A stretch of DNA of 64,000 bases, taken from assembly GCA_963969365.1 (NCBI GenBank), contig OZ017760.1, forward strand, positions 1,860,001 through 1,924,000, written 5' to 3'. Position numbers and translations under genes: made by a program. The notes beneath the pieces were generated by a model. It was not told where the DNA came from. It made no database searches and saw only the letters and a program-made list of their open reading frames with translations. Below, piece after piece: positions 225 through 64,000 of the stretch. The stretch is from Asterochloris sp. CNOR1. Taxonomy: Eukaryota; Chlorophyta; Trebouxiophyceae; Trebouxiales; Trebouxiaceae. Each line of letters starts with the position of its first letter. Within the stretch, counting starts at the first letter, position 1.

Positions 225-3200
225 GTCATCACAGGCTTCCTGGGGTCTGGCAAGACCACCCTGCTGAACAACATCCTGACTCGGCAGCAGGGCAAGCGGG
301 TGGCAGTCATTGAAAATGAGGTGAGGCAGGAGATGCCCTGCGTACGCTCTGCATCGAGGCGGCCCTGCAGAGCAGTGCAAATCTGTAGGCGAGCCTGCTG
401 TGTGGCCCAGTCATCATGTCAAGACACAGAAGGAGCAGCCAGCAGGACACACGCTGCTGCTATGCCATGAATAGCTGCTGTGCATGCTCCGTCAGCTTGT
501 TACTCATATTGCAGTGCCAGAGGCAGAGCCAGTGGCTCAAGCTCGGTGGTCACATCTGCCTTGCCTCTTCTGCCAGCAGGTTCTGGCTTGACCCCGATTG
601 CCCTCTGCCTGCAGTATGGCCAGATCGACATCGACAGCAGCCTGGTTGCCAGCGTCGACAAACTGCAGGACTCAGGCCAGGTCAGCTCCTTGGATCAGGC
701 TGCCCTGCACTCATGCAGTGCCTTGCAGCAAGCCCTAGAATGGCGCTTTTGATGATGACTGACACTGCCTGAGGCTGCCCTCTAGCGTGCAGCCTCCTGC
801 TGTGGTTCAAGGCTATGTCCATGACGGCAGTGATTGCTGCACTTCTGCATTGCACTGCTGGCAGTGGTGCTGGTCTCAGGCCATGGAGTGCTCCAGTCCC
901 TGCCCTGCAGATCATGATGCTCAACAACGGATGCATGTGCTGCACAGTGAAGGAGGACCTCTTGAAGATGCTGTTTGAGCTGGTGAGTCGCCTGCCTGGT
1001 GCCCTCTGCCTGTATAAAGGCACACCTCTTCCATTGTTGTTGCGTCATGTTCATTTGTTGTTGTTGGCGCTGGAGGTGCCTCCTCATGTGCTGGGCTCAA
1101 CTTGATGCAGCTGTATTCTAGCTGTGGGCCTGCCCCGCAACCACTGGCTGTGTCTGGTAATGAGCTTCTTTTTTTGCAGCTGCTCTTTGGCTGTGGGCGT
1201 TTGTGCAGAAACGGTCTGCGCAGACCTAAATCCCTTGGTGTACAGGCATACAGCTTGTCTGCTCAGTCAGGCCTGCAGGGACCACCAGTAGGTGGCGACG
1301 ATCTCAGCTGCCCGCCTCCTTGCAGCAGGCATGACCGCCTCAGCCCTGGCTGGCTGCCTGCAATTCAACGGCAAGCCTGCAGGCCTAGGGATTACCGGAC
1401 CTGAGGCAGGTGCCAAAGTTGACCATTGTGCAGCCTGCCAGGCTGCAGCCCACAGAGAGGTCTGTGCAGGCTAAGGCCTGGAGCTCTCTTCAAGCTGTGT
1501 GTGACTGTTGTTTCCCTGCCTGCCTGCAGTCGCAGCGGGAACCCCGTCCGGAGCATGTGATTGTGGAGACAACAGGCATGGCCAAGCCCCTGCCCATTTT
1601 GACCAGCTTCATGATGTGGGACGTGGCCCAGCACTTTGACCTGGACGGTAAGCTGCTGTGCATGCCTTGCTGGGCAGGAGACTGATGGCAGTCACTTATG
1701 TCACAGCATATGCAGCAGTCTGATTGTCAAGCAGAAGTCTTGGGGACGGGTCTCGTCATGGCCCTCGGCGTCATGCTGGTGGCCCAGCCTCTGCTTCAGA
1801 TTGTGAGTTGCTGTCTACCAGTTTGCACCAGGTCAAAGGTGGGGCAGGGACAGGGGGAGACAGTGCCAGGCCTCCAGCTGTAAGGCCCCTGGGCTGGGAT
1901 GTGGGTGGGATGGGACTGTGGCTGTGGCTGCAATCTGCATGGTGGGTGGCTCTGACTTGCATCAGCACAAGCAGCAAGCAGCAAGCAGATGGCTCACTGG
2001 ATTGGGCTCCGCTGTGACACTGTATGCTGTCCCTTCCCTGCAGGCGTCGTCACAGTGGTCGATGCCAAGCATGTGGTGCGCCACCTGGACGCCAAGCCAG
2101 AGGTTGACGAGGAGCCCAATGAGGCCATCTCCCAGATTGCCTATGCTGACCGGATCATCCTCAACAAGACTGACCTGGTGGGGCTTGTGCCCTTTGTGGC
2201 TACCATCTGCATCCATGGCCTGCCCCACATCGTCTGTGCTGATGTGAGGAGCTTCAGAACCTGGATTGGTGCATCACAGTAAATGCAATGCAGAAGAGAA
2301 CTTCCAAAGCAACGCCTCTTTGATATATTCAGAGATGCTGACAGATGTTGTGGTCGCTCTGCAGGTCAGCCCCGAGGAGCTGCACAGCCTCGAAGGGCGC
2401 CTCAGCAGAATCAACCAGCTGGCTCGATTCCAGAAGGCAGTGAAGGCTGAGGTACCCCTGGACTTTGTGCTGGGCGTTGGCGGGCACGACTTGGACAGCG
2501 TGGGGAAGGAGCTGAGCAGGGTAAGTGGGTTTGAGGGGAGCATTTGAGGGAGCGGCTCTGGCCCATGCCCTTCTGTGGTGCTGGTGAGGCACTGCACGCA
2601 GATCATTGTAGCCTGGTCCCCATGTCGGGCGCAGGGTGGACAGCATGGATCAAAGTTTGAGCAGGTTTACTGGTTGGCTGGCCACATGATGTCTGATGTA
2701 AGAAACGCTCATTGCTGCATTCGCAGCACATGACTCAAAGGCCCAGACAGCAGGGCAGGGGTGCCAGGCAGAAGTGGCATTGACATTGGGATTTAGGAGA
2801 GAGGAATGGGAGGACTCTGCCGCACAAGCAGGATGACGCACTGATGGCAGGCATGACGTGAACAGCACGCATCTGAGCACAAAAAGGGTGTTGGCAGCCC
2901 ATGGACCCTGAGGTGCTGCATTAGTGCAATTTAGGCAGATCAGCCTTTGGCTTGTGCAGTGCACAGCCTTGGAGAGCCTACCTTGGTACAGTGGGGCTGC
3001 GCCTGTGAAAGCCCCTGAAGGTTGCCTGCTGAGACTGAAGCACTCTTGAAGCGGCTGCCACTCACATCATGACAAGCACCACAGCCACCGTGATTGCTGC
3101 ACAAGCCTCACACACTGCCCCCGCACCGATTCAGGAGCCAGTATGTTGTGACAGAGCCACAATCAACATGAGGAGCACCACAGTCACACCCATCTAGTTG

Positions 3201-4604
3201 CTGAGCATGCCTCACATGCCGCCCCCGCAGCGTAGCAGGAGCTAGAGCACTCCCCCTGCAACATCATGAGCAGCATTGCAGCCACTCATGTCTAGGTGCC
3301 AGGCAAGCCTCACACACTGCACCTCTACTAATGCAGGAGCCAGAGCAAGTACAAAACCACTCACACCATGAGGAGCACCACAGCCATTCGCACCACGAGG
3401 AAGAGTCCCACTCACATCATGAGGAGCACACCCACACCCACTCCCACACAGAGAGCCACTCCCACAGTCACCACGACCACAGTCACCACGATCACAAGCA
3501 CGCCGATGACGTCAGCTCCTTCAGTCTGATCATAGACGAGCCCCTGGATGGGTACAGCGTCGAGTACTGGCTGCAAGAGCTGCAGACCTTTGCAGAGTGA
3601 GTCTGGGGGCTGCTATGGGTTTCTACTGAGATGTGTGCCTACAGGGGCTGCTCCAGGCTTGCGGTTGGTGCAGAGCTTCAGCTTGAATGACAATTTGTGC
3701 TTTCTAATGGCTATGGCACAGAGGTCTGGCTGCCAGAGCTGCGAGACTTTGAAATGTGAGTCTGGGACTGCCTGCCTGGCTGAGAGTACAGCACAGGATG
3801 CTGGCTCCTGAAGCTGCTGCAGGGCTCAGAGTGAGTGTAGGGCTGCTTGTGTCTTGTCAGGGCGCGGCCTGGTCCAGGGCTTACCACTCAGTATGCGTCT
3901 GGGCTGCTGCAAAGCTGCCAAGGTGAGCAGCTTTGGCCTGCTTGAGAAGATCCCTCAAAGGGGGGCAGCGGCTCCTCTGCTGGCCACTGCACATGGAGCA
4001 TGTGAAGGCTGCAGGTGGGCGCTCAAATGGGTCACAGCTACAGCTGCTTGCATGTCTGGCTGAGATAGGTGTGTCTGCTGCGTGTCTGTGCTTGAAGCAG
4101 CCCGGCTGCTGTGCAAAGACACGCCCTTCAAGCTGTCCGGGAACTGAGGTGCCGCCCCCTTGCCTGCAGTGACCTGTACAGAATGAAGGGGTTCCTCAAC
4201 ATCGCTGGTGAAGACTCCCGAATCGTTTTCCAGGCAAGCCTGCCTGGAGGCTTCTTGTGAAGTGAACTGGTTCCTGTTAGACTGCCTTGCCTCGCATATG
4301 GCCCCATGCACAGGGTCTGTGGTAAAAGGTGCTGCTGCTGCACAACTAGCTGTGCACCACTTGCCCTAAACCCTAAACCTGTGCCAACTATGTGCAGGGT
4401 GTGCATGGGATGGTTTCAATGGATGCTGACCATGCCTGGGGACCAAATGAGCAGCGCCAGTCGCGACTGGTGTTCATTGGCCGCAAATTAGAGGAGGACA
4501 TGATCAAGGAGGGCTGGCTGGCATGCCGTGTCAGACAGCCCGGGCAGGGGGGGAGCAACGGCCAGGGTGGCTGGCAGCTAGAGTCCTCATCAGCTGTAGC
4601 ATGA
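225..4604 (+). CDS. CobW/ZNG1-type GTPase (zinc metallochaperone family), 5' end unresolved
   Basis: P-loop GTPase of the COG0523/CobW family; the eukaryotic ZNG1 branch delivers zinc to client enzymes. Exons I could chain in frame: 225-320, 615-680, 911-982, 1530-1647, 2044-2177, 2365-2520, 3337-3596, 4170-4233, 4398-4604 (390 residues). Seen in order: Walker [10 protein letters not shown], the family CxCC metal motif in NGCMCC, the ETTG loop, the NKTDL base-recognition motif, a His-rich linker of HH/SHSHH repeats, then a CobW_C domain containing the RMKGFL motif. The length matches ZNG1 proteins apart from a missing N-terminal stub, whose exon lies before position 225 or off the window. The intron after 4233 starts with GC (GCAAGC) instead of GT. 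The introns around the His-rich exon contain decayed copies of its edges. Family assignment is firm; zinc as substrate is inferred from family and His-rich linker. Confidence 0.9.
3059..3343 (+). repeat. Three decayed upstream copies of the His-rich exon start
   Basis: Segments at about 3059-3141, 3155-3246 and 3261-3343 each repeat a CATCATGA..GAGCA..CACAGCCAC-like stretch followed by GCCTCACA..GC and a GCAGGAGC(C/T)AG-like acceptor region. They lie directly before the real acceptor at 3336/3337 and resemble the real exon, which holds the same His/Glu codons. Stops interrupt the copies, so they look like non-coding remnants. Confidence 0.65.
3548..3771 (+). repeat. Exon-end plus donor duplication, period 159 bp
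   Basis: 3548-3612 (end of the His-rich exon, donor GTGAGTCTGGG) reappears at 3707-3771 with the same layout, including an intact GTGAGTCTGGG. The copied reading frame keeps the Trp-Leu..Glu-Leu pattern. A weaker third copy may lie near 3798-3850 (..CAGAGTGAGTGTAGGGCTGC). Confidence 0.75.
4364..4380. repeat. Interstitial telomere-like tract (CCCTAAA)2CCT
   Basis: Two exact CCCTAAA units plus a partial unit, the plant/algal telomere repeat, lie 17 bp upstream of the acceptor at 4397 in the last intron of the CobW gene. Confidence 0.75.
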
Positions 4605-12800: not shown

Positions 12801-14621
12801 TGACCCCACAGCCAAGGCATTGCCCGGCCTGGCACGCCAGTTGTGGCCTTGCATGGAAAGTTGAAAAGCCACCATCTGTGCCCAGCACCCAAAGCCAGCA
12901 ACGTGTCCAGGCGCTCCTCTGGCGCATCATTACAGCATGCCCTGCGACAAGGCTTAGTCTGGTGCAGCATTCTACCCTGACGCCCCACGCCAGCTGACCT
13001 GTTGAGGCGCTGCCTGGCCTGGCGTGCCCATCGCAGTGTGGCCTGCAGCAAGGCTGCCTCCAGAGCCTGCCCTGTGCTCAGCTGCGCCATCAAGGGCCCC
13101 AGCTGCTGGACAGTCTGGTCCAGCACGCTAGTGGCCTCTGCCACAACCTCCTGTGTGGCCTGCAGCAACAGAGTACCTAAGTGCCAGCTGCCACAACCTC
13201 CTGTGTGGCCTGCAGCGACAGACTACCTAAGTGCCAGCTGCCAAGGCCACTGTCAGCAAGGCAAGAGCCTGTGGCGTCTGCAGGACAGGCAGGGCTTTTC
13301 TGCCAGCAAAGCAGTATCAGACAGGTGTGTGAGTCAAACAGCAGCAGATGATGAGTAGTGCATGGCTGGATGACCATCAGAGGCTGCAATAATTTGGTGG
13401 GGGGGGGCATGCCACAGGACAGGGCGGCGCTTGCAGCAGAATCATTGCTTGCAGCAGACATCATTGAACTGTTATCTCTGCCTGTGCCAGGTATCTGTGA
13501 AAGGTACAGGCAATAGGGTCGCCACTCACTCCACGGAAGTCACCTGTATCTGCCCCTGCGCCAGCACGATCTGGCGGTCCAGCTGGGCATTGCGCATCTG
13601 CATCATCCTGAGCCGCTCAGCGCTGAGGCCTGCTGCTGCTCCGGCCTGACTGGGTGGCACCGCGGGTGCCCTCTCAAGCAGGCTAGCTCCGCCCACCTCC
13701 CCTGAGCCTGCACGGTGTGCTAAGCTGCAGCTCGTACTGCTGGGCTCGCTGCAGGCTATGGCCAGCAGCTTGTTGAGGTAGGCCACTTCACCCTTCAGGG
13801 CAGCGTTATCAGATTGCAGCTGCTCCTCCCTTGCGTTGGCCTGAGAGGCAGCCCTGCACCGCATTCAAGAAAGACAAGCGTCCTGCGAACAAGTATGAAT
13901 ATGATATGACATGGGCTCCAGTGCAGATGCAAACATGCTTAAGTCGCGCTCTGAACATTGTACTATAAGGAGTCGACAAGCAGGCGTGTATAGATGCGCC
14001 AAGTGCACTGTCAGATACAGCAGCTGTTTCCCAGACAGCACTGCTGCAGCAGCAAGTCCTCCATTGGAGTAGCTCATGAGCCGTTATGTGCAGCAGGCTT
14101 CACTGAGTGCCCTGCAGGGACAGTAGGCTGCCAGCAACTGCAAAGGTGAATGGCACTTACTGTGCTGTGGCCGCCTGCTGCTCCAGCCTGTCAATGGTGA
14201 TGCCCATGCTGACAATGCCAGTCCTGGCAGATCCCTCTCCCCTGCTGATTGTTCTGCTGGCAGCAGGCCTGTCTGCAGGCCGGCAAGTCCTGACACAGCT
14301 GGCAGCAGCTGCCTGAGGTGTGGGCTGAGCAGCAGCAGAGCTGGCCTCTCTGCTGTCAGGCGTGGGTAGTGCTGCCTCAAGCGCAGCATTGCTGGTGACT
14401 CTGCGGGTGGCAGTGCACCTGGTGGCACCTTTTGCCGTCAGCTCTGTTCCTGGTTTTCTGAAAGGCTTTGCTGCTGTAGATGCCAGCTTCCCAGAATCTG
14501 CTCCTGCAAGGGGCAGCGATCTCCTGCTTGGCACAAAAGGCTGAGCCCCTCCCACACCAGCCTGCAGCTGCAGCTTGTGCAGCTTGATGTGCATGGCTTG
14601 CTTCTCATTCTGATCCATCAT
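9822..14621 (-). CDS. Ala/Gln-rich helical (coiled-coil) protein, unknown function
   Basis: I do not recognise a family. Probable exons 5' to 3': 14621-14161 (ATG at 14621), 13853-13544, 13159-12999, about 12115-11941, 11874-11653, 10710-10550, 10378-10247, 10170-10051, 10020-9822 (stop). The first three join with matching phase; later borders are less sure. The N-terminus is basic and Ser/Thr/Pro-rich with LHKLQLQAG near the start. From about residue 145 a run of short helical segments follows (ENALKGEV-like QSDNAALKGEVAYLNKLL, then AERLRMMQMRNAQLDRQI). The later exons share an Ala/Leu/Gln composition with a 'VLDQTVQQLGPLMAQLS'-type heptad look, as in microtubule- or centrosome-associated scaffolds. 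That role is only a guess from composition. A TTACA (TGTAA on the minus strand) at 9720-9724 could be the poly(A) signal. Confidence 0.6.
13141..13240. repeat. 50-bp tandem duplication spanning a 3' splice site
   Basis: 13141-13190 and 13191-13240 are two 50-bp units that differ at two bases. Each holds, on the minus strand, CTGCAG followed by GCCACACAGGAGG, which is the acceptor and start of the exon ending at 12999. The gene therefore has two near-identical acceptors 50 bp apart; using the outer one would shift the frame (50 is not a multiple of 3). Confidence 0.93.
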
Positions 14622-14949: not shown

Positions 14950-17900
14950 ATGATGGGCACAGAGTTCAACAGCCTTCACAGTGCCCGGCTGCAGCAGCAA
15001 GGGACCAGCATGACTGGGGGCCATAATGCCAGCCTCAGGGTGCAGCGTACTCCAGGATCCACGCGAACCCGCTCCACCACAGGAGGCAGGCAGTGGGTCA
15101 AAATCAATGCTGCTGGCGAGATATCCTATGTGGAGGCAAGGCCCTGCCAGCTGCTGATGTCATTGCCAGGAGTCACTCCAGTAGGCTGAAGTAGCTTCCC
15201 TCATCAGTCTCTCAGAGAGGCTGCTGTCATGCTTTAGGGCCAGGCGACTGCCTTGTGTGCCCTCTGCTGGTGCAGCTGGGCGAGCTGCTAATTTCTTGTG
15301 CCTGTGAACCGTTTCACCATCTCTGCGTGACAAAGAGTGGCATGCTCCTGCCCTGCTGCAGCCAGTTCTACGCAATTGCGCAAGTGAACATGCCCTGCCA
15401 CACTGCAGACGGCTCAGACATCTGTGCAAGGCACAGACCAGCATGCTGCTGCCCCGGCTGCAGGGCAACAAGCATGCTATCACCAGCAACCTCTCCCTGC
15501 ACTACCGCGATGTGAGGATGGTGGACAGTCTGGTGAGCACAGCATGCCATGATCAGCCAGGCCCCTTCTTGCCAGACACATGCATTTCAAGGATCCATGC
15601 TGGTTGCAAGCTGCACCAAGGAGCCACCTGCAGCCAATCATGCAGCAAATGGGTGCACAGCATGAGAGACCTGGCGTCAGCCAGCCTTCAGGACGGCGGC
15701 TTGCACTTCACGAGTGCCATGAGCTGATATCTTCGAGCTTGTTGACCGGGACCAGCTGACTGGGTCCAGGCCTCTGTCCTGCAGGACGCGCACGGCTCCC
15801 CTGTGCACTCAGCAGCGCTGCTCATCCGAGAAAATGCCCTTGTCGTGAAGTTCGACACTGTACGCATGATCATCGACGTGCAGAACGTCTACATTCTCAG
15901 CATACCCACGCCAGGCAAGCCCTGCTGCTTCTCAGCACCAAACATTGCATGAGGTCAGCACATAGGTTGCAGCCAGCCATCCCCACTGCGGCCACTGCCT
16001 GTGCATGATCTGCTGCGCGAAGGGTAGCTTGCTTTTGGCTAGCATGAGGGCTTAAAAAGAGAGTGCAGACCCCTCAAGTGCTGAAGGGGCTACAAGACAG
16101 TGCCAGCCACAGCAGGCGGGACGGGCATGTGCTGCTGCAGGTTCAGCGCACATTGCTGCCAGCCCTACAGCCGACAGCCCTTTTGTGAGGGATTTGTCAA
16201 CCCGGGTGGACAGCAGCTGCGACACCTCCTTCCTGGGCAGGTGAGCGCCCCCTTGCAGGCAACTGCTGGGGCTTGGGACAAGCAACGACTTGTGCAGGGC
16301 CTCGCATGCCGCACTGGCAGCTGACTGGAGATGAGTGGTGCTGTATCTGGTAGTAGCTCCTGACTGCATCACGCCTTCCAGCAGACATGCCCTGGGACTG
16401 AGCATCCCAGCAGAGGCGACCTTTGCATTCTGTTCAGGCACGATGAGAACCTGCACGTGGACTGGACGCTGCCCTTTGAGCTACGGGCATTGGAAGGGGC
16501 CCTGCACATGGCGGTTGAGGTGCTGGTGACTGACACGCTGCACGTTGAGGGCTGCATGCTGCCCAGCCTGGAGCGCCTGAGCCACCAGGTGAGGCTGTCT
16601 GGGCGGCCAGGGACAGGCATGCCACCCAGTGCCTCCTGCTGCGAGACTCATGGTGGCTGCATTGGCACTTGCACAGCCTACGGACCACCAGCCTCGTGAG
16701 CTTGAGCCACCAGGCGGGGCTGCGTGCAGGCCTTGGACATGCATGCTGGCCCCAGACGCAAGTGTCCATCAGTGCCTTTCTGAACCATGCCAGCCCAAGC
16801 TGCTGACTGCCCCGCCTTCAGCATGTCAGCCACCAGGTGTGGAGGATGGCTGGACTGCCACTGTGAGCACCAGAGCAGCGCCATGCTGGGCCTCGCCGGC
16901 TCACACTCCTGTTGCCATGTGCACGCAGCGACCAGCAACACACAGCACCTTGCCTGCCAGGTGTCCAGGAAGGAGTTGGAGCGGGTGCAGAAGCACAAGG
17001 GGCGCCTGCAGGAGCTGCTGCTGCGGGTGGACAGTCTCAAGCAGGTCAGCAGGCAGGGGGTTTCTCATTTGCATGCTGCCCAGGCTGGCCAAGCTGCTTG
17101 TGCCGCTGGCACCTCAGTATCACAAGCCTGCAGAGCTTGCTGAGGTCTGTCAAAGGCCAGAAAATTTGCCTAGTGGCCAGCCTGAAGCGGTGGGCAGGTC
17201 AGGGTTTGCTTGCTGCTCAGATTGGCCAAGCTGCCTCTGCCGGTGGGGCCCCACATCACCAGCCTGCTGCTTGCAGAGCTATTCATGGCAAGCCCCATTT
17301 CTGGTTGCATCTGCAGCTGCATGCGCTGCGTGAAGCAGTCTTTATTCAGACTTTGCTTTGTGAGCGAGGCGTCTGTGAGATGAACAGTCACATTGCACAT
17401 CTGAAAAGTCTCCACTCCCTGCCTCCTTGACTGGTGCTGGGTCATCTAGATGGGAGTGGAACCTGGCTGCACAAGCCGCTCAGGCCAGCCTGCCTCGAGG
17501 ATGAAGACAAAGGCCTTTTCGGCACGAGTTCTTCGCCGGGCTGCTGCTGTAGGTGCTTGAGGGCATCCTGGATGACGACGACGATATGGATGACATGTAC
17601 CTTGCCCGGAGGGCACAGCAGGCCGCCACAAGCACCACCTTTGATCAGGTCAGCAGCTGGCACCACCTTTGACCTGATCCGCTGCAAGCAACACCATGAA
17701 CAAAATGAGCAGGGGCCACCGTACCAGGTCAGCAGCTGTTGGGACTCCTTGCTGGACAGCCACCATTAGCCAAGTACAGCTTTGCAGGCTGCCCCCAGAG
17801 ACCCACAGCAGGGCATCTGCAGGCCAGGCTGTAGCAAAACCAGCAATGCACAGGGTATACATCAGACTCTGCAGGTTGAGGCAGCCTCAGGTCAATACTG

Positions 17901-36980: not shown

Positions 36981-39900
36981 TCAAGAGGAGTCATCCTTTG
37001 AGGCTTGACGGGCATGCTTATTTGCAGCGGCTGCATCCTGGCGAGTGATGAGGTCGCGCAGCCTGGACAGCTCCTGAACAGGATCCAGCACATTGCGAAC
37101 GCGCTTCCCATCCAGGTCAACGCTGCCAAAGCGAGAGTCCTGGGCGTCAAAGCTACGGCTGGATGCGTGGCCAGCCTGCGACCTTCTGTTGAGTTCACGC
37201 ATGCTGGTGTCCAGCACTTGATCTCTGGCTGGTGTTCTGGCTGTGCCTTGAAGGGCCTGCAGGCGTGGCAGGCGCAGTCAGCATTCAATGGGCCGTGAAG
37301 GACTGCCGGCAACATAAGGGTAGGCACCTCACAACAGGACACAATGGCTGGTGCAACAGACCACTTCTGCACCAGGCCAGGTCATTGTTTGTCAGCAGTT
37401 GCCCACCCTCTGAAACCTGTTGCCTGCTGGACGCAAGCGCTGGCTGCCGTTGCCATCTGCAGTCTGGGTTGCGGAGCCAAGCTCTGGAAGTGAATCTGAG
37501 ATCGCCGCTGAGACAGGCTCTGCAGGCAGGTCAGGCATGTCAGACCGGAACCGGCTGGTTGGCAGCACAGCATGACAACCATACTGACACCTCACCAGAG
37601 GTGCATGCAGCCTTGCTGGACAGCGCACTGCAGCAAGCAATGTGCAGCTCTTGTTGCATCTGTAAGCTGGCCACAGCAGCAGGGGAAGGCTGGGGGAGCA
37701 ACCCTGAGCAGGACTCGCCATTGTACAGGAGGGGCAGCCTAATGCTGAGCACTCTGTGCAGCCAGCTCCCGCTTGAAGAGTTGCACACCCTCCAGACTGG
37801 GGCAGCGTGCAACTCCACTGGATAGCCAGCTCAGGCCATGTGGCTGGCCCAATCGCAGCCCTGCCACTCACCATCATACAACAGGGGCAGCTTAACGCTG
37901 AGTACCCTGTCCACCCAGCTCCGGCTGGAGCGGGTTCCGGCTACCCTCTTCAGAAGATCCAGCAGCTCTCGATAGGTGGGACGCCGAGGAAGAATGTCTA
38001 AAATGCGTGAGCCCTGCCCATTGGGCCACATGTAGTGCACCTGCAGGCAGCGGGCAGCCACTGAGGTTGGGGAGACTTGCTCTCAGTTGAATGGCTGTAG
38101 ATGATGCACCTGTAGGCAGAGGCAGCCACCACAATTGGCAGAGTCTGCTGTTCCTCGTGTGGGCAGATGCGCTGCACCTGCAGGCAGGCCCAGCCACAAA
38201 GATCGAGGAGCACTGCTGCTGGTCATACGGCTGCATCTATTGCACCTGCAGGCAAAGGCAGCTACATGCACGACAGTCGGCTGATGGGCCACACCCACCT
38301 TGCAGCTGCTGCACTATTTCTTGCGCTACGGGAGCAGCTACGGCTTGATGTAGGGCCCCATGGGCACTGCAAAGTCAGGCCATTCCTCACAGCCTGTGAG
38401 AGGCTTCTTGGCAGGCAGGCAGAGGGTGGCAGCCAGCCGTCCAAGATGACACCAAAGGCAGTGTAGCCTTGGGCAGATCTCAAGTCTTTTACGCCCACCT
38501 GCCAGCCACCCGGGTAGCATTTGAGCAACCTGGCATCGTCACCCATAACTGACACCCTCTCCAGGACATAGATGTCGGTGAAGGTCCCCAAAAACTGCTC
38601 AGCGTCTTTCCTGGCCTGCCCAAAACTGCAGAACAGGAGACACCTCAGCAACTGCTCAGTCAGGCAGCAGTTCCACCATGCCACACAAGAGAGGAGATGG
38701 TCAGGCATGCAGCTTGCAGTGAGGCACCCTCACCCAAAGTCTGACACAACTTGGCCTGTGGTTGACCACTGGGGGTTGAGCAGCAGCGTGAGGCGTTGAG
38801 GCCCCTTCAAACCTGCAGGCCAGTGGCAGGATGGCCCTGAGGAGCTCTTGCTGCAAGATCTGGCCACGAATACTGCTCAGTAAGCGGCAACGCCATTACA
38901 GCAGGGAGAGTCCTGATGCGTGGGGCTGCGCTGTCTGTGAACGGAAAATTTAGGGTGCATCAAACACCGCTGCAGTAAAACTTTGCATTGCCTCCTGGCA
39001 TTGTGGCTGATAGATGCAGGTCTCAGCAGACGGCTTGGTTGCTCACCTGCTAGCTGCTGCAGCTGCGGCAGAGTGTCAGCTGTGGGAAAGACAGCCGCTG
39101 CCATGTTGCTGCTTTGCCAGGCTCCCACACAGTCACTCTCATCCAGCCACTGTGCCGAGAGCCGTCCCTGCACAGCTTATGAGTGGACGCTAAGGATCTT
39201 TTGGTCATAAGCCCTGAGTAGCTGCACGCGAGTCTGGTATTCACATTCAGAAAGGTCCGTTTCAATACGTTGACCTGGATACCCTCCTGCATTGAGATGC
39301 TCCAGCAGTAGCTCTCTCCAAGCTTGCAAAATAAACTCTTCAAAAGACCACTTTGGTTCCCAAAAAGTCACCTACCGTCAGTGAAGTAAGTCAGGCCTTG
39401 CCTAGACATGTGCACCTAGAGGCAATCCTGCTTGCTGACATGCCCTTGCAGCGGCTTGACCAAGGCTGAGATCGTGACTGTAGCCTGCTGGCAGATGCGA
39501 ACAGAACACACTGCCCCATTCCAGGATGTCCCCGAGCCTCATGATCTGAGTCAAGACCCTTGAGAGGCGCACCTGGAGGCCCTCCTGCTTGTTAAGTCGC
39601 ACCAGCAGCGGCTCAACCATGGCTGGAATCATGACCTTGGCCTGCTGGCGGATGCCCCCTGGCCACCCTGTTTGCTGGCTGCTCATGCCCTCCTGGGGCA
39701 GCATTAGCTCCAGCGTCAGACGGCGCTCCCCCGCTGCACGAGCTCGCAGCACAGCCTCAACTGCCTGCACAGCAAACAAGGATGCTCATTGCAGGCAATC
39801 TTGAGTGGCCCACAAAGGATGGCTGTGCTGGAGCTGGTCTTGCGTAGCAGGCTGCAAGACAGCGCCAGATACTTGTGCGGAAAAGGATTTGACATGGCTT

Positions 39901-40395
39901 AGTTGGCATGCTGTTGGCATAGCAGAGGCACATTGCAAGCCATGGCGCTGCAAGTGTTGCTCCTGGTGCAGCAGCCATAGCTCAGCTTCAGGGGCCAGCG
40001 ATACTTGCTGTGAGGCTTGTATCTTGACAAAGGTCAAGCAATGACGCAACAGGATGTCACATCGTGCATCAACACCTTACAGGTGCAGCATAGAGAGACG
40101 GCAGATACTTACACCCCCGCCAGAGACACAGCAGATGTCTGCTACAACCTGCTCAGACAACAGAGACTAGCTAGCCCACCTGCTGCAAGACCTTGTTCAT
40201 GCACATGCCAGATTCCAGGCAGCAGTATTGCCCAGGTGCACAGGGCTGCACCAGAAGCAGGCCTACCTGCTGCAAGGCCTCATTCATGTGCAGGGGCAGC
40301 TTCCAGGCCTTAGCCTGTCGCTTGTCAAGCAAGCGAACAGTCTCCGGCCCCTCCAATGGTCCCAGGGGGCCCCACTCACGTGTGAGCTCCTCCAC
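36981..40395 (-). CDS. DUF1995 family protein (plastid-lineage)
   Basis: Exons include about 40395-40269, 39764-39573, about 39150-39045, 38812-38734, 38625-38499, 38040-37872, about 37552-37409 and 37217-36981 (stop). Family landmarks: MNEALQQ joined to AVEAVLRARAAGERRLTLEL at the start; AAAVFPTAD; the core LTLLLNPQWSTTGQVVSDFG, which is the family's 'NPQW..VVSDFG' motif and continues in phase into FGQARKDAEQFL; then LLKCYPGGWQ. DUF1995 proteins are restricted to photosynthetic eukaryotes and cyanobacteria and include proteins linked to photosystem II assembly (LPA3) and chloroplast adenylate-kinase-like annotations. The exact role here is unknown. The initiator ATG and any transit peptide lie 5' of 40395, because that frame opens with GTG rather than ATG. 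The C-terminal tail (RELNRRSQAG..DLITRQDAAA) is not part of the domain. Confidence 0.8.
37715..37940 (-). repeat. DUF1995 exon end duplicated, period about 154 bp
   Basis: The exon end encoding VLSVKLPLLYDG (37869-37940) is copied at 37715-37787, where the same frame reads VLSIRLPLLYNGE. The copy follows the real exon in transcription order and its frame is still open across this stretch. Confidence 0.85.
37995..38290 (-). repeat. Four-unit array of acceptor plus exon start, period 68-69 bp
   Basis: CTGCAG or CTGTAG acceptors on the minus strand at 38041, 38110, 38178 and 38246 (69, 68, 68 bp apart) are each followed by GTGCA and a short similar exon-like stretch, and preceded by a GCTGCC-like tract. 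The innermost one (38041) is the real acceptor of exon 38040-37872. Confidence 0.88.
39413..39640 (-). repeat. DUF1995 exon segment duplicated, period 158 bp
   Basis: 39571-39640 (exon encoding VEPLLVRLNKQEGLQ with its donor) is copied at 39413-39480: ACCT(A/G)GAGGC(A/C)xTCCTGCTTG, CAGCGGCT(T/C)(G/A)ACCA and GGCTGxxATC. A more distant relative may lie at 39280-39330. Confidence 0.85.
40175..40315 (-). repeat. Echo of the first DUF1995 exon end with donor
   Basis: 40175-40230 and 40261-40312 share CC(C/T)ACCTGCTGCAAG(A/G)CCT(T/C)(G/A)TTCATG and a TTCCAGGC tract about 86 bp apart. The second contains the donor of exon 40395-40269. Confidence 0.8.
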
Positions 40396-45890: not shown

Positions 45891-46716
45891 TCCTAGATGC
45901 GCAGCCTGTGATTGACTCCAGGGTGTCTCTTGCTGATAACACCTGTTCCTGAGATCTGGGGCTTTCAGAGGTAAGAGGCTCTGTTGCTGGCTCACAAGCA
46001 CTGCCAGAAGCTCTTGTGTGAACGCTGCAGTTCTGTTGCAGAGGAATGGCGCAACTATGGACGCCTCTGTAGTGGCACACCGCGGTGTTGCACACCGCGG
46101 TGTGGCGGCCGCCATGCAAGGTCCCAGAGCAGCAGCCTGCTCCAACAGAGCACCGCAGCAAGCTGCCACTAGCAAGATGGGTGTGTTTTGTAGCTCAGCA
46201 CAGCCGCTCTGACCACGCGTGCCTTGCATTTCACTCATCTCTCCTGCTGCATTGGCACAGCCAGACAAATGCAGGTCTGATTCTCAGCACTGCTCATTCA
46301 AGGCACAGCCTCTGTGCTGGCCTGCAATCCGTTGACTCGTGTCTCCTTTGGCACATTAGCGGGCTTGCACCACAAGTCAAAGTAATAATTTCCTGCATGT
46401 GCTTCAATTATAGTAAACATGGGTCAGTAGTAAACTGCTGAGTCGAATTAGCAGTTAGAGACTGCCAAGTGCTGAATCATGCACTTTGCAGACTGCGATT
46501 CGACTCATCAGCAGTTTACAGTTCCACTCATCAGCACTTTGCAGTTCCACTCATCAGCACTTTGCAGTTCCACTCATCAGTGAAGCAGTTCATGAGCAAT
46601 CGGGCAATTCAGGAAGTGGCTGTGGCTGCTGGCCACTGCTCATGAGATCTGTCCCATTTCATGTTGGGCTCCTGTGCTCCAGCTGCGCCAGCAACGTATC
46701 CCATCTGGGCTCATAC
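45891..46716. other. Convergent intergenic region with a 23-bp repeat
   Basis: Lies between the HDAC-family stop (+) and the GST stop (-). No gene recognised. A CACCGCGGTGT palindrome-like doublet (46078-46102) and the 23-bp array at 46503-46580 are the only structures noticed. Confidence 0.45.
46503..46580. repeat. 23-bp tandem repeat, 3.4 copies
   Basis: Units starting at 46503, 46526, 46549 and a partial at 46572, consensus ACTCATCAGCACTTTGCAG plus TTCC. Units 2 and 3 are identical; unit 1 differs at two bases. Confidence 0.95.
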
Positions 46717-51100: not shown

Positions 51101-54100
51101 ACCGCAAGCACAACCTGCTAATGCCCCTGTGGAGGCCCTGCATGCAGCTTGTCAGCTCTCCGGGACCTCTTGGCCAAGTATAGAGACTCCCAGTACCTTC
51201 AGCAGGTGAGCATGCGTCGAGCGCTGTCGCAAAAGTCTGCCAGTGCTGCGGGAGAGCGCTTCAAGCCCACTGGGCCTGGCGGTGTGCTGCCTGCCAGCAG
51301 ATTGTGTACTTCAGCAGATGCTACCCACAATTGTTTGTCTCATGCTGAAACTAGCGGTGCACTCAAGAGGGGATTTCCCATCAAGCACACTTGCCCTTCT
51401 GCAAGACTGCTGAGCAGTGCAGATGTGTAGCTGAGACGCCTTGTGTCAAGTCAGCAAAATGCAGCATGCATAGGACATACTTTGCAATACTGACACCCGC
51501 ACCTGTGGCCCGCAAGCAGCAAATGCAAAGGCAGAAGATGCATGAACACAACGCTTCCTCAAGTGGATTGACAGGTTCTGCTGCCCACTGAGGTGTGCCT
51601 TGCCGGGTGGCATCTGTTGTCCGACAGGAGCCACCGCAGGCTGGCAGGGCGAGGCCTCTATCACTCATGAGATGCTTTGCGCAGTCTTCATGCCCGTGAT
51701 GCAGGACGATGCTGCAGCTGTGCACCAAAGCAGCGCCTGCTGGAGCAGGGATGAGAAACACACCTGACCTTTGCAGGATAAGCAGTGGTTGTGCTGCCTG
51801 TCGTGCAGGATGACCCTGCAGCTGTGGCGCGCAAGCAGCGCTTGCAGGAGCAGGAGAGACGGGCGGAGGAGCGCCGCATTGCGCTGAAGAAGGCTGCCTG
51901 GATGAAGCAGGTGGCTGCCAGGCGGCGCCTGCAGGACGCCCGCTCGCAGCAGAGGGCCGTGGCAGCAGCACAGGGACATCGATTCCAAGCCAGACGCAGC
52001 AGCATCAAGTGAGCCTTCTGGTGCCTGCCACTGCTTCTGCAGTCTGGCTGGCAGCTACCTGCTTGCAGCCCAGGGCTCCCGCAGCTTCAGACCGACATAC
52101 AGGTGCAGGTACTTGCATCTTTGCTGCTGCCCTAGTCTGCTCGGAGCCGACATCTGCCAGTGTGGCTGCTGCAGGGCTGCCCAGTTGACGGCCCAGGCGC
52201 AGGCACTAGCCAAATCGCTCAGCCTGCAGAGGAACGCTGCGGAGGAGGCGCACTTCAAGGAGGCCTTTCTGGCTGCTGTGGAAGCAGAGAAGGAGAGGCT
52301 GCTGGCAAGCAGGAGGCGGCCTGCAGGACAGCCTTCAGAGAAGGGGCTGCCCCAGGCAGATGCCGGGCAGGACGCGGTGAGTGTTTGTCACCAAACAGAA
52401 GGCTACTGCAATTGCACTGCATGGGCGCTACCCCGCAGGGGCTGGGGACAGCTCAGGCGGTTGCAGGGTGGAGGCGGATGAGTGCAGCGCCTTGTGGCAT
52501 CAGTGAGTGGCGCACAGGAGGCCCTCCGCAAGGCAACTAGATGTGCAAGTACTTCACAGGCAGTGGTAGGATGCGCAATCTGCAGCTGGTCATTTTCTGA
52601 TCTCTCTCCTCGCTGGTGGTAGACACCAAGTCCAGGCAGTCTCTGGGCAGGTTGCATTGAGTGCAGCTGTGGACTTGATCTGGTTGGCAACACGGAAGGC
52701 AGCTGGTGTGGCATTGCATGGGTCTGCAAACACAGGTGTGCAATGGCAGGGCAGCGCACAAGCACACGGGCATGCCTCTGTACAGATGTGCACATGACGC
52801 TTGTCAGCTGCCGGCCCTGCTGCAAGTGAAAGATTGGTTCAAAGCCAATGTGCAGCAGCAGAGGGTGTGTCTGCGGTTGCTTTCCTGCGGCAGGATGAGC
52901 AATGAACCCCAACATGCCGTAGAGGCAATGCACTCTACAAGGGAAGATGCCTGCCGTCCCGTTGGTGTGACACGTTGAAGCCAATGGCTGCAAGGCTCGG
53001 ATGCAGACAGTAAGTGTACAAAGCCAAGGTGCAATGACTGCAGGAGCAACATGAGAAGAGTATGCCTGCAGCTATTGACAGCAGTTTGAGTTGGTGCAGG
53101 GGAGAGTGTTGCGGCAGGGCTGTTGACAATGTTGTGCCTAACGAATGCATTAAAGCCAAGGTGCAGTGGCTGCAGGAGCCGCGCAACAGAGTGTGCCTGC
53201 AAATGCAGACAGCCTTTGAGCAGGTGCAGGGACAGCGTGTCGAGGCAGATTTGTTAACCCTCTGGCCAATGCTGCAGGTGGAGTACGCTGAGGCCAAAGT
53301 GCAATGGCTGCAAGAGCTGCATGAGCGTGAGTGCGCAGAGCTGGAGGAGATGTTGGCACGTGAGTACCAGGAGCGCGTCCTGCAGGAGCACGAGAAGGTG
53401 GGCTGGGAGATGCACTGCGTGATCTGCTTTCACAACACTGATGGAAAGGAAAGGGAACCATCATCATCCGCTGCAGATGCATGCTTAGATGAGCCGGGGG
53501 ATGCGCTGCGCCATCTGTTGCAGGATGACTTTTGGCGCACTGAAGGGAGGGGAGGGATGCCTCATTGATGAGCTGGGAAATGCACTGCTTCATCTGGCAG
53601 ACAGAATGTAGGGGAGGGGAACATTTTCACTGTTGCGGGAGCATGAGATGGTGGGTTGCCATGAGTGCTCTGCTGCAGAAGCCTGGAGTAGTGGCCGGCC
53701 TTAGACCAGAGAGGCTATGAAGGGCACTGGTTGGGGGCTGAGACTTTCCTGCTGTAAGCATAGGGGGCGTGTATAGCACCGAGAGTGGGACATGGGCCAG
53801 TGTTCTGGGCACAGCACTGTTGCAGGCTTTTAGACGCCAGGCGCTGCTCCGCATTCCATGTGTGTCTAGGTGAGGACGAGATGCGCTCGGCTTTGTGCAA
53901 GCACGTGCTGCGAGAGCCGGAATAGGTGGGCTGAGCTCATGGCGTGCAGCAGTATTGTAGGAGCGATACCCATGTCCCATTTGTCTGGTGGCAAGCCTCC
54001 TGCAAAGGTTGTTAGACAAGCTCCGTTGCCTAAGCCGCACCTGTGTGGGATTGTTTCACACCGGCAAGGCAGTCTCCTGTTCAGTCCATCCTGCCTGTCT

Positions 54101-55560: not shown

Positions 55561-58500
55561 ATGCCTCCAGGGACCATCAAGCCCATCGGCAAAGGAGATG
55601 TTCATAAGATCTGCTCTGGCCAGGTCATTTTGGACCTGGCTACCGCTGTCAAAGAGCTTGTAGAGAATGCTCTGGATGCAGGGGCCACCAATATTGAGGT
55701 GACAGGCGCCATAGATCTGCAATGGGGTTGCCTGCTCATGTTTTTGCTGGTCTCAGCAGCATCTGCACTGTCGCTATTTTCGCTGAGAATATGGTGCATG
55801 CTGCATAGAGCAGAGCTTGACCCACTGCAGCAACAAGACAAATGATGCAGCATGTGCACACAAATGCATGATGTGAGGTGCAAGGTGCAGAGTATGGCAG
55901 CATACCCACTGTCTGACAATTGCATATTTTAGGTGCGCCTGACAGAGTATGGCAGTGAGATGATTGATGTGGCTGACAATGGGAGCGGCATCGCTCAGGA
56001 GGATTTTGAGACACTCATGCTCAAGTATCACACCTCCAAGATCACGAAGTTTGAGGATCTGCAGGTCGGTGTCCATGCAGGAGACACTTGAGTTTCTGGA
56101 GTGCTGGAGGGGGAGTGCTTTGCAGGACTCTGTTCAGGAAACCTTCTGCCTTGCTGATTGAATGCCCTGGCGCTGAGCTGCCGGCTTGTGAAGCTGCGTG
56201 AGGTGCCATGCTCAGCGCATGGTGCTGCCGGACGCTGCCATGCACCAGCAACACAATTGCGAGCCACCTGCATGGCAAACTGCTGTCTGCATGCTTCTTG
56301 TGGGCCAACATGGCAATGACCTGTATCCCTCGAAGCAGCACCAGATATTATCCTCACATGAGCCCCATGCCGGGGCACCTAGGGGATTGGAGCAGCCTGC
56401 AGAGCTCGCCGTCGCACAACCAGTTGCTGTATCACCCCCACATGCAGCCAATACAAGCCGTGGGCAGATCTTGGGCTTGTAGGCTGACTCAGCTGACTCT
56501 TTGCACAGGCAAGGACACCCCCTGTCGTTGTGGTCACCTTGCTTGGCGGGTGCAGGCTGTGGGCACCTTTGGCTTCCGTGGAGAGGCGCTCAGCTCCCTC
56601 TGCGCTCTGGCAGACGTCTCTGTGGTCACTCGCTGCAAGGAAGCTCTCCTGGGGCAGAAGCTGTCATATGACCATGCCGGCAGGCTGGGGCAGCAGAGCC
56701 CCACTGCCAGAGCCCCCGGCACCACTGTCACTGCCAAACAACTTTTCCACAATCTCCCTGTGCGGCACAAGGTGAGCACTTGTTGTGCACGCTCTGTTTG
56801 GGCAGCATCTGAGCATGCCACCAGCTTGGTAGGCTGGGGCAGCAGAGCACCAGGACCACTGGCCCTGGCAGCAGTATCACTGTCAAGCAGCTCTTTCACA
56901 ATGTGCCTCTGTGGCACAAGTCGGGCAGATCGATTGGAGGCTCTCGTTGGGTAGCAGCTAAGCATACCACTAGCCTAGTTGGCTGGGGCAGCATGGCCCC
57001 CCCTGCAACGCCCTTTGGCACCACCTTTGCTGCCAAGCAGCTCTCCAACAACCTGCCTGTTAGGCCTCAAGGTGAATGCTTCTGCTCAGCTCCCCCACGC
57101 TGAGCATTATCTGGGCTGCCACGTATGCTTCTGTTTCCAGCTCGCATGGGCAAGACACATGTCAGATCTGCCTGCGCGTGGTGCAACCAGTGAATAAGAT
57201 CTGCGGGGCGGGAGCTCATCACACCTGCTCCGCTCATGGCCACATTCTCGCTGTTAAAAAGTACTTTTCAGGCCAGGCCTCAGTGGTGCAAAGATGCTGC
57301 AGCACTTCCACCAGTAGCGCTTCACCAAAGTCCTCAAGACTTGCAGCTCACTATGACTGCAGGAGTTCAAGCGTCACATCAAGCGGGAGTACGGCAAGCT
57401 GCTGGCAGTGCTGCAGGCATATGCCCTTATCTCGACAGGGGTGCGCATCATCTGCACAAACCAGGTCAGCCCACTTTTGAGGATACGTCTGCGTTGATCT
57501 CATGAGTGTCAGCTTGACGCATCCCACGCTGCCTTGCTTTGCATTGATCCCTTGTGTATTCTGTGCATGGCTATGGTTTGACTGTTGTACCTTTCCTGAC
57601 TGGACCAGACAGATGGTTGCCGCCTGCATCTGGCAGCTGTGTGTCTTGGCAGACCGTTGAGAACACATCTTAAGGTCACCACATATGGCGCCAGCTCATC
57701 AAGAGCCCAGCACCCATGTGACGTTGGCAGGTCTGCAGATGCCATAGCCTGGCCTAGTGCATTGACACTGTGGCAGCTGCTTGTGCCAAGGGCAGCTGAC
57801 GTTGGCAGGTCTGCAGATGCCATAGCCTGGCCTAGTGCATTGACACTGTGGCAGCTGCTTGTGCCAAGGGCAGCTGACGAGCCCAAGTCGCATGCTGGTC
57901 AATTTACTTCAGGCACAAACCTACAGCGCTGCAGCTGACCTCCATCCAAGTCCCTGTCTGGCTGGGGTGGCTGCTTGGTGTTATCGCATCTCACCCTCCC
58001 CACTCAAGCATCAAGTCGAAGCACTTCACTGTCCAGCACACATAGCTGTGTCTTGCTGCAGGTGGGCACTGGAGCACGCAGCACAGTGCTGAGCAGCCAG
58101 GGGGGCACCAGCTTGTGGGCCAATGTGGTCACTGTCTTCGGCTCCAAGGCAGCCCACAGCCTGCAGGAGTTCAGTGCGGCGCCTGCCGATGGCATCAACA
58201 TTGAGGGGTGAGCGGTGACTCTGCGGTGTCAGCAATGGCTGCAATGCACTGAACTGGGCAATGCTGCTTTCCTTGCTTCCTTTCCTTGCACGTGTGCCTA
58301 GCCTGTCCATGAGGCTGCCGCCAATCAGACATAGCATCGTGAGGGGTGAGGGTTCTGCTCACATCAGCGATTAGGGCAGTACTGTGGCAGTACTGTTTGA
58401 CCAGGCAACCATGCGCTGCACTGCCTGCTGACCTGCCCCGCATGGTAGGGATGCGCCAACCTGCAGACCAAGCCTGCGCTTCAGAAAGGGCTGAGATGGC

Positions 58501-61500: not shown

Positions 61501-64000
61501 GTCTGAGGGCGGACAGTCAGCAGCCACTCCTGCGTTGAAGCAGCCGCTGATAGCTGCCTTTGCTCTGAAGCAGGCCTCGCCTGCACAGCGACCGATGCAC
61601 GTGGGGGCTGGGCAGGCACAGGCACAGGAGGCCTCACCCACAAAGCAGCAGGCCCAGTCAGGGGCTGAGCTGGTACTGGCAGAGCACATTGAGCCGACGC
61701 AGCAAACAGGGCAGGCAGGGGCTGGCCAGGCACATCTGGGGACCAATGCGACACAGGCGCAGACAGAGCACGCCTTGTCAGCAAAGCCACGCGGGGAGGC
61801 AGGGACTGGCCAGGCGCAGGCCGCAGCAATGGAGGGCAGCGACGACGAGGCCAGCTCAGAGGGAGAGGATGGTGTGTGCCGCTGTGATGCTGCATTCCTG
61901 AAGTGTCACCTGCTGTAGCAGGCTGGTGGGGGCATGAGCTCAACTACTCTTCTTCACGTCGAATCTCAATTGAGCGGCTAGCAGCCTGGATGCGTGAGAG
62001 TCTACATCTGATTAGCACAGTGGGAAAGTGGCCACGTATGTCCCCTGTATTTGATGTGTGCGAGGCTCTTGTTGAGCCTGCCATTGCACCGACCCAGTTT
62101 TGCAAGATACCGGTGGGGCTGGATGCCCTGCACAGCGCCATGAGTTAGCCATCCTGGCAGCATCCCTGCTGAATGCAGAGAACATACCACCCATGTGACT
62201 CTGCAGCTCTGAAATCTCATGATGTGTCCATGCTGTTTTTGGTTTTATGTCCTCTGGGGCGTTGCCTGCAGGCGATGTTTCAAGCCTGCGGTCTGCCATG
62301 CACAGGACTTGGACGCCACCACTGTGCCTTTGATGGCGCTCTGCAGCCAGCAACCCCCTGCCCGCACTGCCTGCAGGCGATGGAGAGCCACGCTCTGCCA
62401 AGAGGAAACTCTGGAAACCCCCGGGCATGGAGCGGCCCATACCGCCCTCCCCACCCTCAGCTGCTGCAGGGGCGTCACGCCTGTGGCAGCAGCCGACTTG
62501 CCCTCGGCTGCCGCATGTGCCAGCCGTCCAGCTGCACACTGACACAGTGGCTGCTGCACCTGCTGTTGAGGGTGGCCAGCAGCACCATGCTGCTGATGGA
62601 GGCGGCAGGCAGCCGCTGGCTACACGCCTGGACGATGCAGCAGGTAGGCTGGCCCCTGCTGCTATGCGCAGCTCAGTGGGCGGCCACAGGCGCTCTGGTT
62701 CTGTCTCAGGCAAAAGCAGCGACATCGATGAGGAGGGCAAGGGCTTGGGGCCAAGAGAGCGTGAGTCAGGCAAGCATCTGGCAGCGTGAGGGCTGCAGTC
62801 TCAATCCAGGCAGATAGTGGCAACTTTCGTGCTAGCCGGAACTTCTGTGGGGTGGCTGCAGCTGCTGGTGTCAGAGCACACCCTTCCTTGACTGCTCACC
62901 CTGAATCTAGAGATTTGCAGCTTGAGTTGCACAGCCGCATGCGCTAGGCCTGACAGCAGGCCAAGCCTGCTCATGCACACTGCGTGCTGCAGGTGAGGCA
63001 GGCGCTTTGGGCTCCTGTGGTGACAGAGCATCCCTGCCCATGGGAGCTGCAGGCTCCTGCGGCAGCCAGCGCCTGCAGCAGCGCCATGATGCCAGCAGCG
63101 GCTCGCAAATGGGCACCCCGGCTGCTGCGGGACCCTCTCAGCAACAAGGGGCAGAGGATGCAGCAGTGCAGGCTGCAGCCGACCAACAGGATGAGGTGAG
63201 GCAGCCCTGCTGCGTCTTGGGAGTGGGCGGGCACAGCTTCAGCTGTGCAACAGGACAGTGTCATACATCAGGGTGCATGACCGGCAAGTGATGCCTCGTA
63301 GGGCTGGTGCCGGCAAGGGCCCACAGCTGGGCACTGGGGCTGCTGTGGGTCTCTCTCTGCATCCGGGGGCAGACAAGGCAGCAGACCAAGCTGCAGCAGA
63401 CCCAACAGGATGAGGTGGGGCCGCTCCACTGCATGTTGAGAGGCATCAGGCACAGGGTCAGCCATGCGAGAGGAGTGCCCCATACATCTGCGTGTGCAGC
63501 CAGCAAGCACAGGTTCCAGGCCTGGCCCATCATGCCAGCGTCGGCCCTTCAGCTGGGCATTGGGGCTGCTGCGGGACCATCTCTGCAGCATGAGGCAGAT
63601 GATGCAGCAGTGCAGGCTGCAGAGGACACAAGCGATGAGGTGAGGCAGCGTTGCCCGTGGGGGAGGCATGGGCCCACTCCAGCTTGACGGCGGGCTCTCT
63701 CTACTGGTGCCAAGCATCTGCATAGCAGCTCGACCCCTGGAGATCTGCCCCAACCAGGGTGTTGCGGAGCTGAACAAACATGCAGTGGCCATTAGCAAAG
63801 CACCAACGTTGCGCCTTGTCATGACATCTTCATCGCTGCAGCTCATGCTCTTCTGCTGCAAAGCGCGCACCATTGTCATGCCCAGTCTTGGCAGCTGACC
63901 TGCCATTGGACCTGTAAAGGCAGTGGTACCTGTGGCGATGGGGGAAACAGGGGCAGTAACAGCTGCAGAGGGCCAACACAGCTGAAGTAACGCTGAGCCC
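55561..64000 (+). CDS. PMS2: PMS2-type MutL mismatch-repair protein (plant PMS1), continues past the window
   Basis: MutL-alpha subunit. Exons joined in phase: 55561-55698, 55933-56064, 56556-56771, 57363-57464, 58062-58207, 58678-58765, then 59196-59292 and 59849-59927. GHKL ATPase motifs: [12 protein letters not shown] (Mg/ATP Asn), [35 protein letters not shown]. They are followed by [12 protein letters not shown], the MutL-specific [15 protein letters not shown] and [30 protein letters not shown] at the start is PMS2-like rather than MLH1-like. A long Ser/Gln/Ala-rich linker exon follows (60.4-61.9 kb: [23 protein letters not shown], acidic [12 protein letters not shown]). A weak candidate for the start of the C-terminal part is 61945-62010 ([14 protein letters not shown]). 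The endonuclease domain with its DQHA-x2-E motif was not found up to 64000 and probably lies beyond. An exon between 59292 and 59849 is missing in my model. Confidence 0.88.
56683..57072 (+). repeat. Triplicated PMS2 motif-IV exon end, period exactly 149 bp
   Basis: GGCTGGGGCAGCA begins units at 56683, 56832 and 56981. Each unit is about 89 bp of exon ([16 protein letters not shown] region) plus 60 bp of intron. Unit 1 is the real exon end with donor GTGAGC. Unit 2 keeps all 29 codons open (..[15 protein letters not shown]) but its donor position reads TCGGGC. Unit 3 has a one-base-type frame change near its middle yet keeps [18 protein letters not shown] and a GTGAAT donor. Confidence 0.95.
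57719..57874. repeat. Perfect 78-bp tandem duplication
   Basis: 57719-57796 and 57797-57874 are identical over 78 bp (start TGACGTTGGCAGG). The array lies in the PMS2 intron between 57464 and 58062 and must be recent. Each unit contains GGCAGGTCTGCAG. Confidence 0.97.
59640..59880 (+). repeat. Two upstream echoes of the PMS2 DVNVTPDKR acceptor
   Basis: The real acceptor at 59848 (AATGCTCTGATGG..CTCTTTGGCCCATGCAG then CTACGATGTCAACGTCAC) is echoed 82 bp upstream (ATTGCTCAGATGG..CTCTGCCCTTTGCAG then CTGCAAAGTTAATATCTCAC) and about 77 bp before that (AATGCTTTCCCCTTGCAG). Confidence 0.8.
63095..63645 (+). repeat. Three copies of an exon-like unit, periods about 219 and 225 bp
   Basis: Units end in GATGAG plus GTGAGG, GTGGGG and GTGAGG at 63195, 63414 and 63639. 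In the shared frame they read [40 protein letters not shown] and [30 protein letters not shown](C/A)TCTC and GCAGTGCAGGCTGCAG core is obvious. Probably part of the PMS2 linker; whether one or all are used as exons cannot be told. Confidence 0.83.

Follow-up and report, generated by a model that had tools for sequence, protein, structure and literature searches.

Exon-edge copies in the introns of Asterochloris sp. CNOR1 probably reflect random short tandem duplication sorted by gene structure

Short tandem duplication is a common form of DNA insertion, in which the copies are direct and adjacent and show microhomology at the breakpoints. Tandem exon duplication, as in mutually exclusive exons, likewise presents exon sequence that is repeated within an intron. 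The excerpts of the literature cited here describe, in addition, an RNA-dependent RNA polymerase (RdRp) gene of potato in which a tandem duplication over an intron-exon boundary supplied a copied acceptor that joined a new spliced intron (PMC4974935), tandem duplication as a standard model for a source of introns (PMC3443670), and introner elements, which are found chiefly in fast-evolving lineages, green algae among them, and alter intron content genome-wide (PMC9860276). Here we analyze a 64-kb stretch of the Asterochloris sp. CNOR1 genome (C15:1860001-1924000, hereafter the window), in the introns of which the initial annotation had noticed extra copies of the adjacent exon edge together with its splice site. 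A repeat was called an echo when a predicted splice junction falls within one copy and the second copy is confined to the adjacent intron. The junction pattern is real and extends beyond the window, and we estimate the probability that it is explained by random short-range tandem duplication combined with selection at around 0.77.

The sample of 314 kb consisted of the window and five 50-kb blocks (A-E) from three other contigs (A-C from contig C1, D from C2 and E from C10) of a genome of 56.38 Mb in 21 contigs. Gene models were made, without annotation or RNA evidence, by a generalised hidden Markov model (HMM) that was self-trained on the window and the five blocks; it includes exon-length modelling and superseded an earlier HMM gene finder that produced many micro-exons. 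In this way 56 genes were obtained, with 683 introns and 739 exons of median length 223 and 123 bp, respectively; some neighbouring genes among them appear fused, and a share of the exon edges will be incorrect. The splice consensus of the first-stage HMM was close to CAG/GTGAGC for the donor and CTGCAG/G for the acceptor, and the GC content of the window was 53-64% (2-kb steps). The figures given for Asterochloris glomerata in the cited excerpt (56 Mb, 10,025 genes, around 9 introns per gene and a GC content of 56-62% in 98% of the genome; PMC6652019) fit the values found here. Repeats were collected by banded Smith-Waterman self-alignment, because self-BLASTN missed a 50-bp array that Tandem Repeats Finder (TRF) shows; a +5/-4 scoring was too permissive, far matches outnumbering near ones, and its counts were dropped. 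The main set comprised 105 non-redundant arrays with a score of at least 34 and an offset of 45-400 bp, and the expectation for their placement was taken from 400 random shifts.

The repeats are both direct and local, as is characteristic of short tandem duplications. At a score of at least 34, the self-alignment of the sample yielded 147 pairs at an offset of 20-1000 bp, as compared to 6 at 1020-2000 bp and 3 at 4020-5000 bp, and 104 of the near pairs had an offset of 60-300 bp. Three dinucleotide shuffles of the 314 kb gave no direct repeats at a BLASTN E-value of 0.01 or lower and 8 inverted matches, and in the unshuffled sequence 8 out of 8 inverted BLASTN matches within 1 kb were self-palindromes. 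The number of BLASTN direct repeats within 1 kb was 25 for the window and 9, 5, 5, 10 and 8 for the five blocks; that the window is the richest is to be expected of a region picked for having drawn attention in the initial annotation. Repeats covered 6.8% of the exon, 5.4% of the intron and 4.0% of the intergenic bases, on a far-offset background of 0.5%. Around the junctions, coverage amounted to 6.1-7.5% at positions -45 to +14 versus 3.4-4.2% at -105 to -46, with 6.5-7.1% at -150 to -121 and 4.2-6.0% at +15 to +149. The density peak at the junctions is thus mild, and the feature that is enriched is the echo configuration, 2.4-fold. The initial annotation had proposed that equally frequent repeats in exons, introns and intergenic DNA would reduce the pattern to an artefact, and on this point the outcome is mixed.

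Among the 105 arrays, echoes numbered 32 against 13.2 expected, a count reached in none of the 400 random shifts; the observation of the initial annotation is confirmed. The remaining arrays were intron-intron (18, expected 29.3), exon-exon (18, expected 8.9), exon-intron without a junction (14, expected 20.2), with junctions in both copies (7, expected 6.2), other (13, expected 16.2) and intergenic (3, expected 10.9). The excess was found outside the window (22 of 75 arrays, 8.9 expected), in the window alone (10, with 4.3 expected; P = 0.0075) and in the BLASTN set (15 of 52, with 7.4 expected; P = 0.0045, 2000 shifts). When pairs in the window were collected at a score of at least 30 and an offset of 20-520 bp, 15 of 55 were echoes (around 3 of the 55 would be chance by the far-offset rate, and pairs within one array were counted singly); these were spread over 8 of the 11 gene models.

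A junction-anchored test, in which the 60-bp exon edge was compared with its own adjacent intron, gave a match for 40 of 1297 edges. The same edges matched introns of other genes in 1 of 1298 cases, the next intron over in 5 of 1197 and the reverse complement in 0 of 1297; exon interiors scored 8/708, intron interiors 8/848 and exon ends against the next exon 7/589. Donor and acceptor sides were equal (21/647 and 19/650, respectively). At the junctions of the window that are supported by protein domains, an echo was present at 3 of 50 (25 introns; the second matched stretch of CobW was delimited by hand).

The reading frame provides a contrast between classes. At a score of at least 34, offsets divisible by three were found for 15 of the 18 exon-exon repeats, which as a class are about twice as frequent as under random placement, versus 13 of the 32 echoes; at a score of at least 30 the numbers were 27/33 and 22/51. 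Therefore, in exons mostly in-frame events survive, and at junctions any length passes. To get an impression of placement at birth, the nine youngest arrays (TRF match of at least 88%, period of at least 20 bp) were considered: 3 lay over a junction, 4 in introns, 2 in intergenic DNA and none in an exon, as compared to an expectation of 3.1, 3.5, 0.7 and 1.7, respectively. In this small sample (n=9) the junction preference that had been proposed is absent. Of the pairs with at least 85% identity over at least 45 bp, four out of five were contiguous tandems that covered 0.86-1.28 of the period (13130 and 57719 in the window, 36011 in block D, and 15133 in block C, which is another echo), and the fifth (window 31907) is spaced and lies inside a transposon-like element. 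The high-identity pairs resemble ordinary tandem duplications in which microhomology is present.

Introns with an echo had a median length of 436 bp (n=40) versus 216 bp for those without (n=643), which agrees with the earlier suggestion that the process lengthens introns. Echoes were present in 3/208 introns shorter than 150 bp, in 14/88 of those of 400-600 bp and in 9/32 of those longer than 600 bp, a rise that is partly a matter of opportunity, as longer introns are a larger target. The difference in length exceeds that of one unit and therefore long introns may have been hit repeatedly. The splice dinucleotide was kept in 5 of 14 donor and 5 of 7 acceptor echoes in a less biased count, which misplaces some sites at alignment gaps (3596 is an example) and leaves out 1 of 19 acceptor hits. 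Inspection by eye of 15 echo rows gave GT in 5 of 7 donors and AG in 7 of 8 acceptors, yet these counts favor retention because alignments must end in matches. There is no indication that the splice sites of echoes are maintained. Whole exons with both sites in in-frame use were not found in the echo class, which by definition involves one junction, and the multi-junction pairs at 39401, 53020 and 63087 are candidate duplicated exons.

The local same-strand repeats, the excess of echoes, the frame contrast and the longer echo introns were observed directly; from these we infer the mutational mechanism, the neutrality of the echoes and the choice of the splice site used. Tandem duplications of around 50-250 bp would originate at sites that are effectively random, with microhomology-primed slippage or end joining as the probable mechanism. 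Within an exon, a unit would persist mostly if it is in frame. Units over one junction would persist at any length, because the mRNA stays the same when the outer donor or the inner acceptor is used, and their second copy would become extra intron. Echoes would also stay recognisable for longer, because purifying selection conserves one copy of the exon part, whereas in intron-only duplicates both copies drift. The net result would be longer introns with spare, decaying splice sites. The initial annotation had considered it unlikely that random duplication would straddle junctions so often, but given a junction spacing of around 210 bp in gene space and units of mostly 50-250 bp, 1211 of 3000 simulated random units spanned exactly one junction. 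Its alternative suggestion, selection that retains copies that leave the mRNA intact, fits both the frame test and the simulations.

In these simulations, random tandem duplications were placed on the predicted structures, units within introns or over one junction were kept, intron bases drifted and exon bases were mostly held. Out of 514 parameter sets, 114 were dropped because of too few hits, and the 400 usable sets were scored only on match identity and length. The observed exon-edge/intron-interior ratio of 3.57 compares to a median of 3.1 (5-95%: 1.4-7.7) for the best 40 sets, and medians of 2.4, 3.2 and 2.5 for the best 10, 20 and 80. With ages uniform from zero, the array-based echo/intron-intron ratio was 0.91-1.83, as compared to the 1.78 observed. 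A number of results weigh against the proposed explanation. Over all 400 sets, unfitted, the median ratio was 1.64 and 21% reached 3.57. Ages uniform from zero predicted a junction-anchored ratio of 0.73-0.82, well under that observed, and an echo aligned length with a median of 0.9-1.0 of the period, whereas the median seen was 0.39. In 25 older echoes, the rest of the unit had a mean z of 0.23 versus 1.1-2.0 in simulated tandems. This low residual similarity may mean that some echoes are spaced copies or badly eroded, possibly with large intron indels. The edge/exon-interior ratio was 2.73 (8 interior hits) versus 1.2-2.4 in the best 40 sets, and intergenic repeats were fewer than expected, in a sample of which only 8% is intergenic. 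Finally, the fit requires very young copies to be rare; our guess is that a collapse of unstable identical tandem copies would make them so.

An outside chance is left for duplication that is targeted to junctions, by breaks that are linked to splicing or transcription (R-loops, paused polymerase) or by microhomology of the splice motifs (TGCAG/CAGG). The 2.4-fold excess of echoes, the mild peak of coverage at the exon edge, the shortage of intergenic repeats and an edge/exon-interior ratio above the approximately 1.8 expected are in favor of such targeting, but the youngest arrays lack a junction excess, the donor and acceptor sides are equal, and, given a scarcity of young copies, the untargeted model arrives at the edge/intron-interior ratio. 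There is a similarly slim chance that splicing- or transcription-coupled copying inserts exon edges, splice signal included, into the neighbouring intron in the form of short, often spaced copies, which would then form a standing supply of spare sites. That the echoes are short spaced copies left by templated insertion after a break, and no true tandem duplications, would account for the aligned length and for a similarity that is near background beyond the aligned part. It is nevertheless improbable, considering that inverted exon-edge copies are lacking, that inverted BLASTN hits are self-palindromes only, that exon-interior pieces without a junction are not enriched in introns (14 vs 20.2), and that four of the five high-identity pairs are contiguous.

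Many echoes retain a splice dinucleotide, as would be expected if they served as alternative exons, splice sites or decoys under selection. However, this retention is about what 80% identity gives over two bases, the offsets of the echoes are without a clear bias to multiples of three (13/32), and the protein families of PMS2 and CobW continue straight across the echo-bearing intron, making a function a poor prospect. Little credence can be given to the idea that the gene finder or local composition produced the pattern as an artefact: the models were self-trained and some genes look fused, but the controls with other genes and reverse complements gave 1/1298 and 0/1297, shuffles were free of direct repeats, and the domain-supported junctions still carried echoes. 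Random duplication filtered by selection remains the reading we prefer.

The individual loci of the window are described below. A Pfam scan of 7 of the 11 predicted window proteins returned a domain in 6 (CobW, histone deacetylase, MutL/PMS2, DUF1995, DUF5745 and GST), and scans of the window with Rfam (gathering threshold) and ARAGORN gave no match. The youngest window echo (13130..13243, minus strand) is a 50-bp tandem duplication over acceptor 13159 with CTGCAG in both copies. At 13138-13243 its unit, ctgcag followed across the junction by GCCACACAGGAGGTTGTGG, lies head to tail over the acceptor; the copies differ by 2 mismatches, both in the intronic part, and TGGCAG is found at both breakpoints. 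In the PMS2 gene (56679..57058, plus strand) the exon end with donor 56771 is followed by two decayed copies with a period of 149 bp in a 591-bp intron. A PMS2 piece of 331 residues aligns with residues 2-328 of the solved PMS2 chain 1ea6 and is unbroken at this intron, and among the 120 of 7878 matches listed the best named relatives are trebouxiophyte green algae, with Trebouxia sp. C0005 first (65% identity). The 3' part of the PMS2 model (61486-63898), in which Pfam detected no MutL C-terminal domain, may be a portion of a different gene. The gene with the CobW domain (plus strand) has an exon end with donor 3596 that recurs 159 bp downstream with GTGAGT intact (3567..3766), and an acceptor (3336) that was copied upstream together with a His-rich exon start at a period of 197 bp, and also 99 and 299 bp (3064..3386).

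On the minus strand, acceptor 30201 and its exon start were copied into the upstream intron (30142..30329, period 119 bp), and the exon end with donor 37871 was copied with a period of 153 bp, the echo donor having changed from GTGAGT to GCGAGT (37713..37929). An exon-edge copy with a period of 157 bp (39401..39655, minus strand) has a small exon called inside the echo; this predicted exon (39440-39484) is probably a gene-finder error due to the copy, and it warns that gene finders can call exons inside echoes. The DUF1995 gene (minus strand) carries a copy of the exon end with donor 40266 (40174..40308, period 87 bp). Its protein also has an exon-to-exon repeat (41230-41375 and 41896-42041) with an in-frame offset of 666 bp that gives zinc-knuckle-like repeats. 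Plus-strand cases are an upstream copy of acceptor 51808 with its exon start (51691..51854, period 104 bp), a copy over both acceptor 53175 and donor 53223 (53020..53248, period 132 bp), and an exon end with donor that is present in three copies, spaced 218 and 225 bp, of which the coding status is putative (63087..63649). The perfect tandem duplication at 57719..57879 (plus strand; period 78 bp, 5-bp overlap TGACG) is intron-only and shows the same process at a young stage, away from a junction.

The periods reported in the initial annotation were all recovered, namely 50 (13138-13243), 69 (38036), 82 (59714), 90 (34580), 149 (56679), 153-161 (3567, 31907, 37713, 39401, 51000) and 218 followed by 225 bp (63087-63649), but by the gene models not all belong to junction echoes: the 90-bp repeat is intron-only, the 82-bp repeat extends only 2 bp past the predicted acceptor, and the 156-bp-spaced repeat at 31907 is inside a small element. 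This element of around 1.06 kb (31863-32921) has 50-bp terminal inverted repeats (84%) and has the appearance of a small DNA transposon; part of the 156-bp-spaced repeat (31907-31962) is 91% identical to a sequence of contig C1 at 3936754, and the stretch immediately to the left of the element has an inverted match at 22476-22527. The window further contains a 23-bp minisatellite (46499-46580; 3.6 copies, 94% matches).

The observations provide a measurable route for intron growth and for the supply of spare splice sites, with a recognisable exon-edge copy at 40 of 1297 edges, and the combination of in-frame exon duplicates and frame-blind echoes fits selection that sorts random duplications by gene structure. 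Among the titles listed in searches of the literature, no genome-wide report of exon-edge copies in introns or of their survivorship was found. Compared to short tandem duplication in general, the copies described here are filtered by gene structure, such that those spanning a junction stand out. Mutually exclusive exons differ in that they comprise a whole exon with both sites, whereas echoes carry one exon edge. As judged from the excerpt cited, the potato RdRp gene shares the boundary-spanning duplication, and has a second, 83-bp tandem duplication within an intron (PMC4974935); there, however, a new intron and a new exon arose that are spliced and expressed, while here the copy appears to remain in the old intron and many introns are lengthened. 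The AGGT-type intron gain of the Rogers model, as outlined in its excerpt, also derives spare splice sites from local tandem duplication (PMC3443670), but needs an exonic unit and an intron length equal to the period, whereas the units here cross an existing junction. Of the 105 arrays, 7 bridge one intron (8 introns), and in 8 out of 8 the length of the intron and the period are 16-80 bp apart. At 16563..16746 (plus strand), where copy 1 lies over donor 16588 and copy 2 over acceptor 16729, the intron measures 141 bp and the period 125 bp, and therefore no such gain took place there. Introners likewise change intron content across the genome, according to the cited excerpt (PMC9860276), but do so as dispersed similar copies. 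Both echo units covered by a search of the 56.4-Mb genome that skips very common words (PMS2 56679 and 63087) occur only at their own locus, which bears out the initial description of a local, gene-specific unit outside any dispersed family. The kind of duplication is thus already known, and the new part is its density together with the tests by which it was analyzed.
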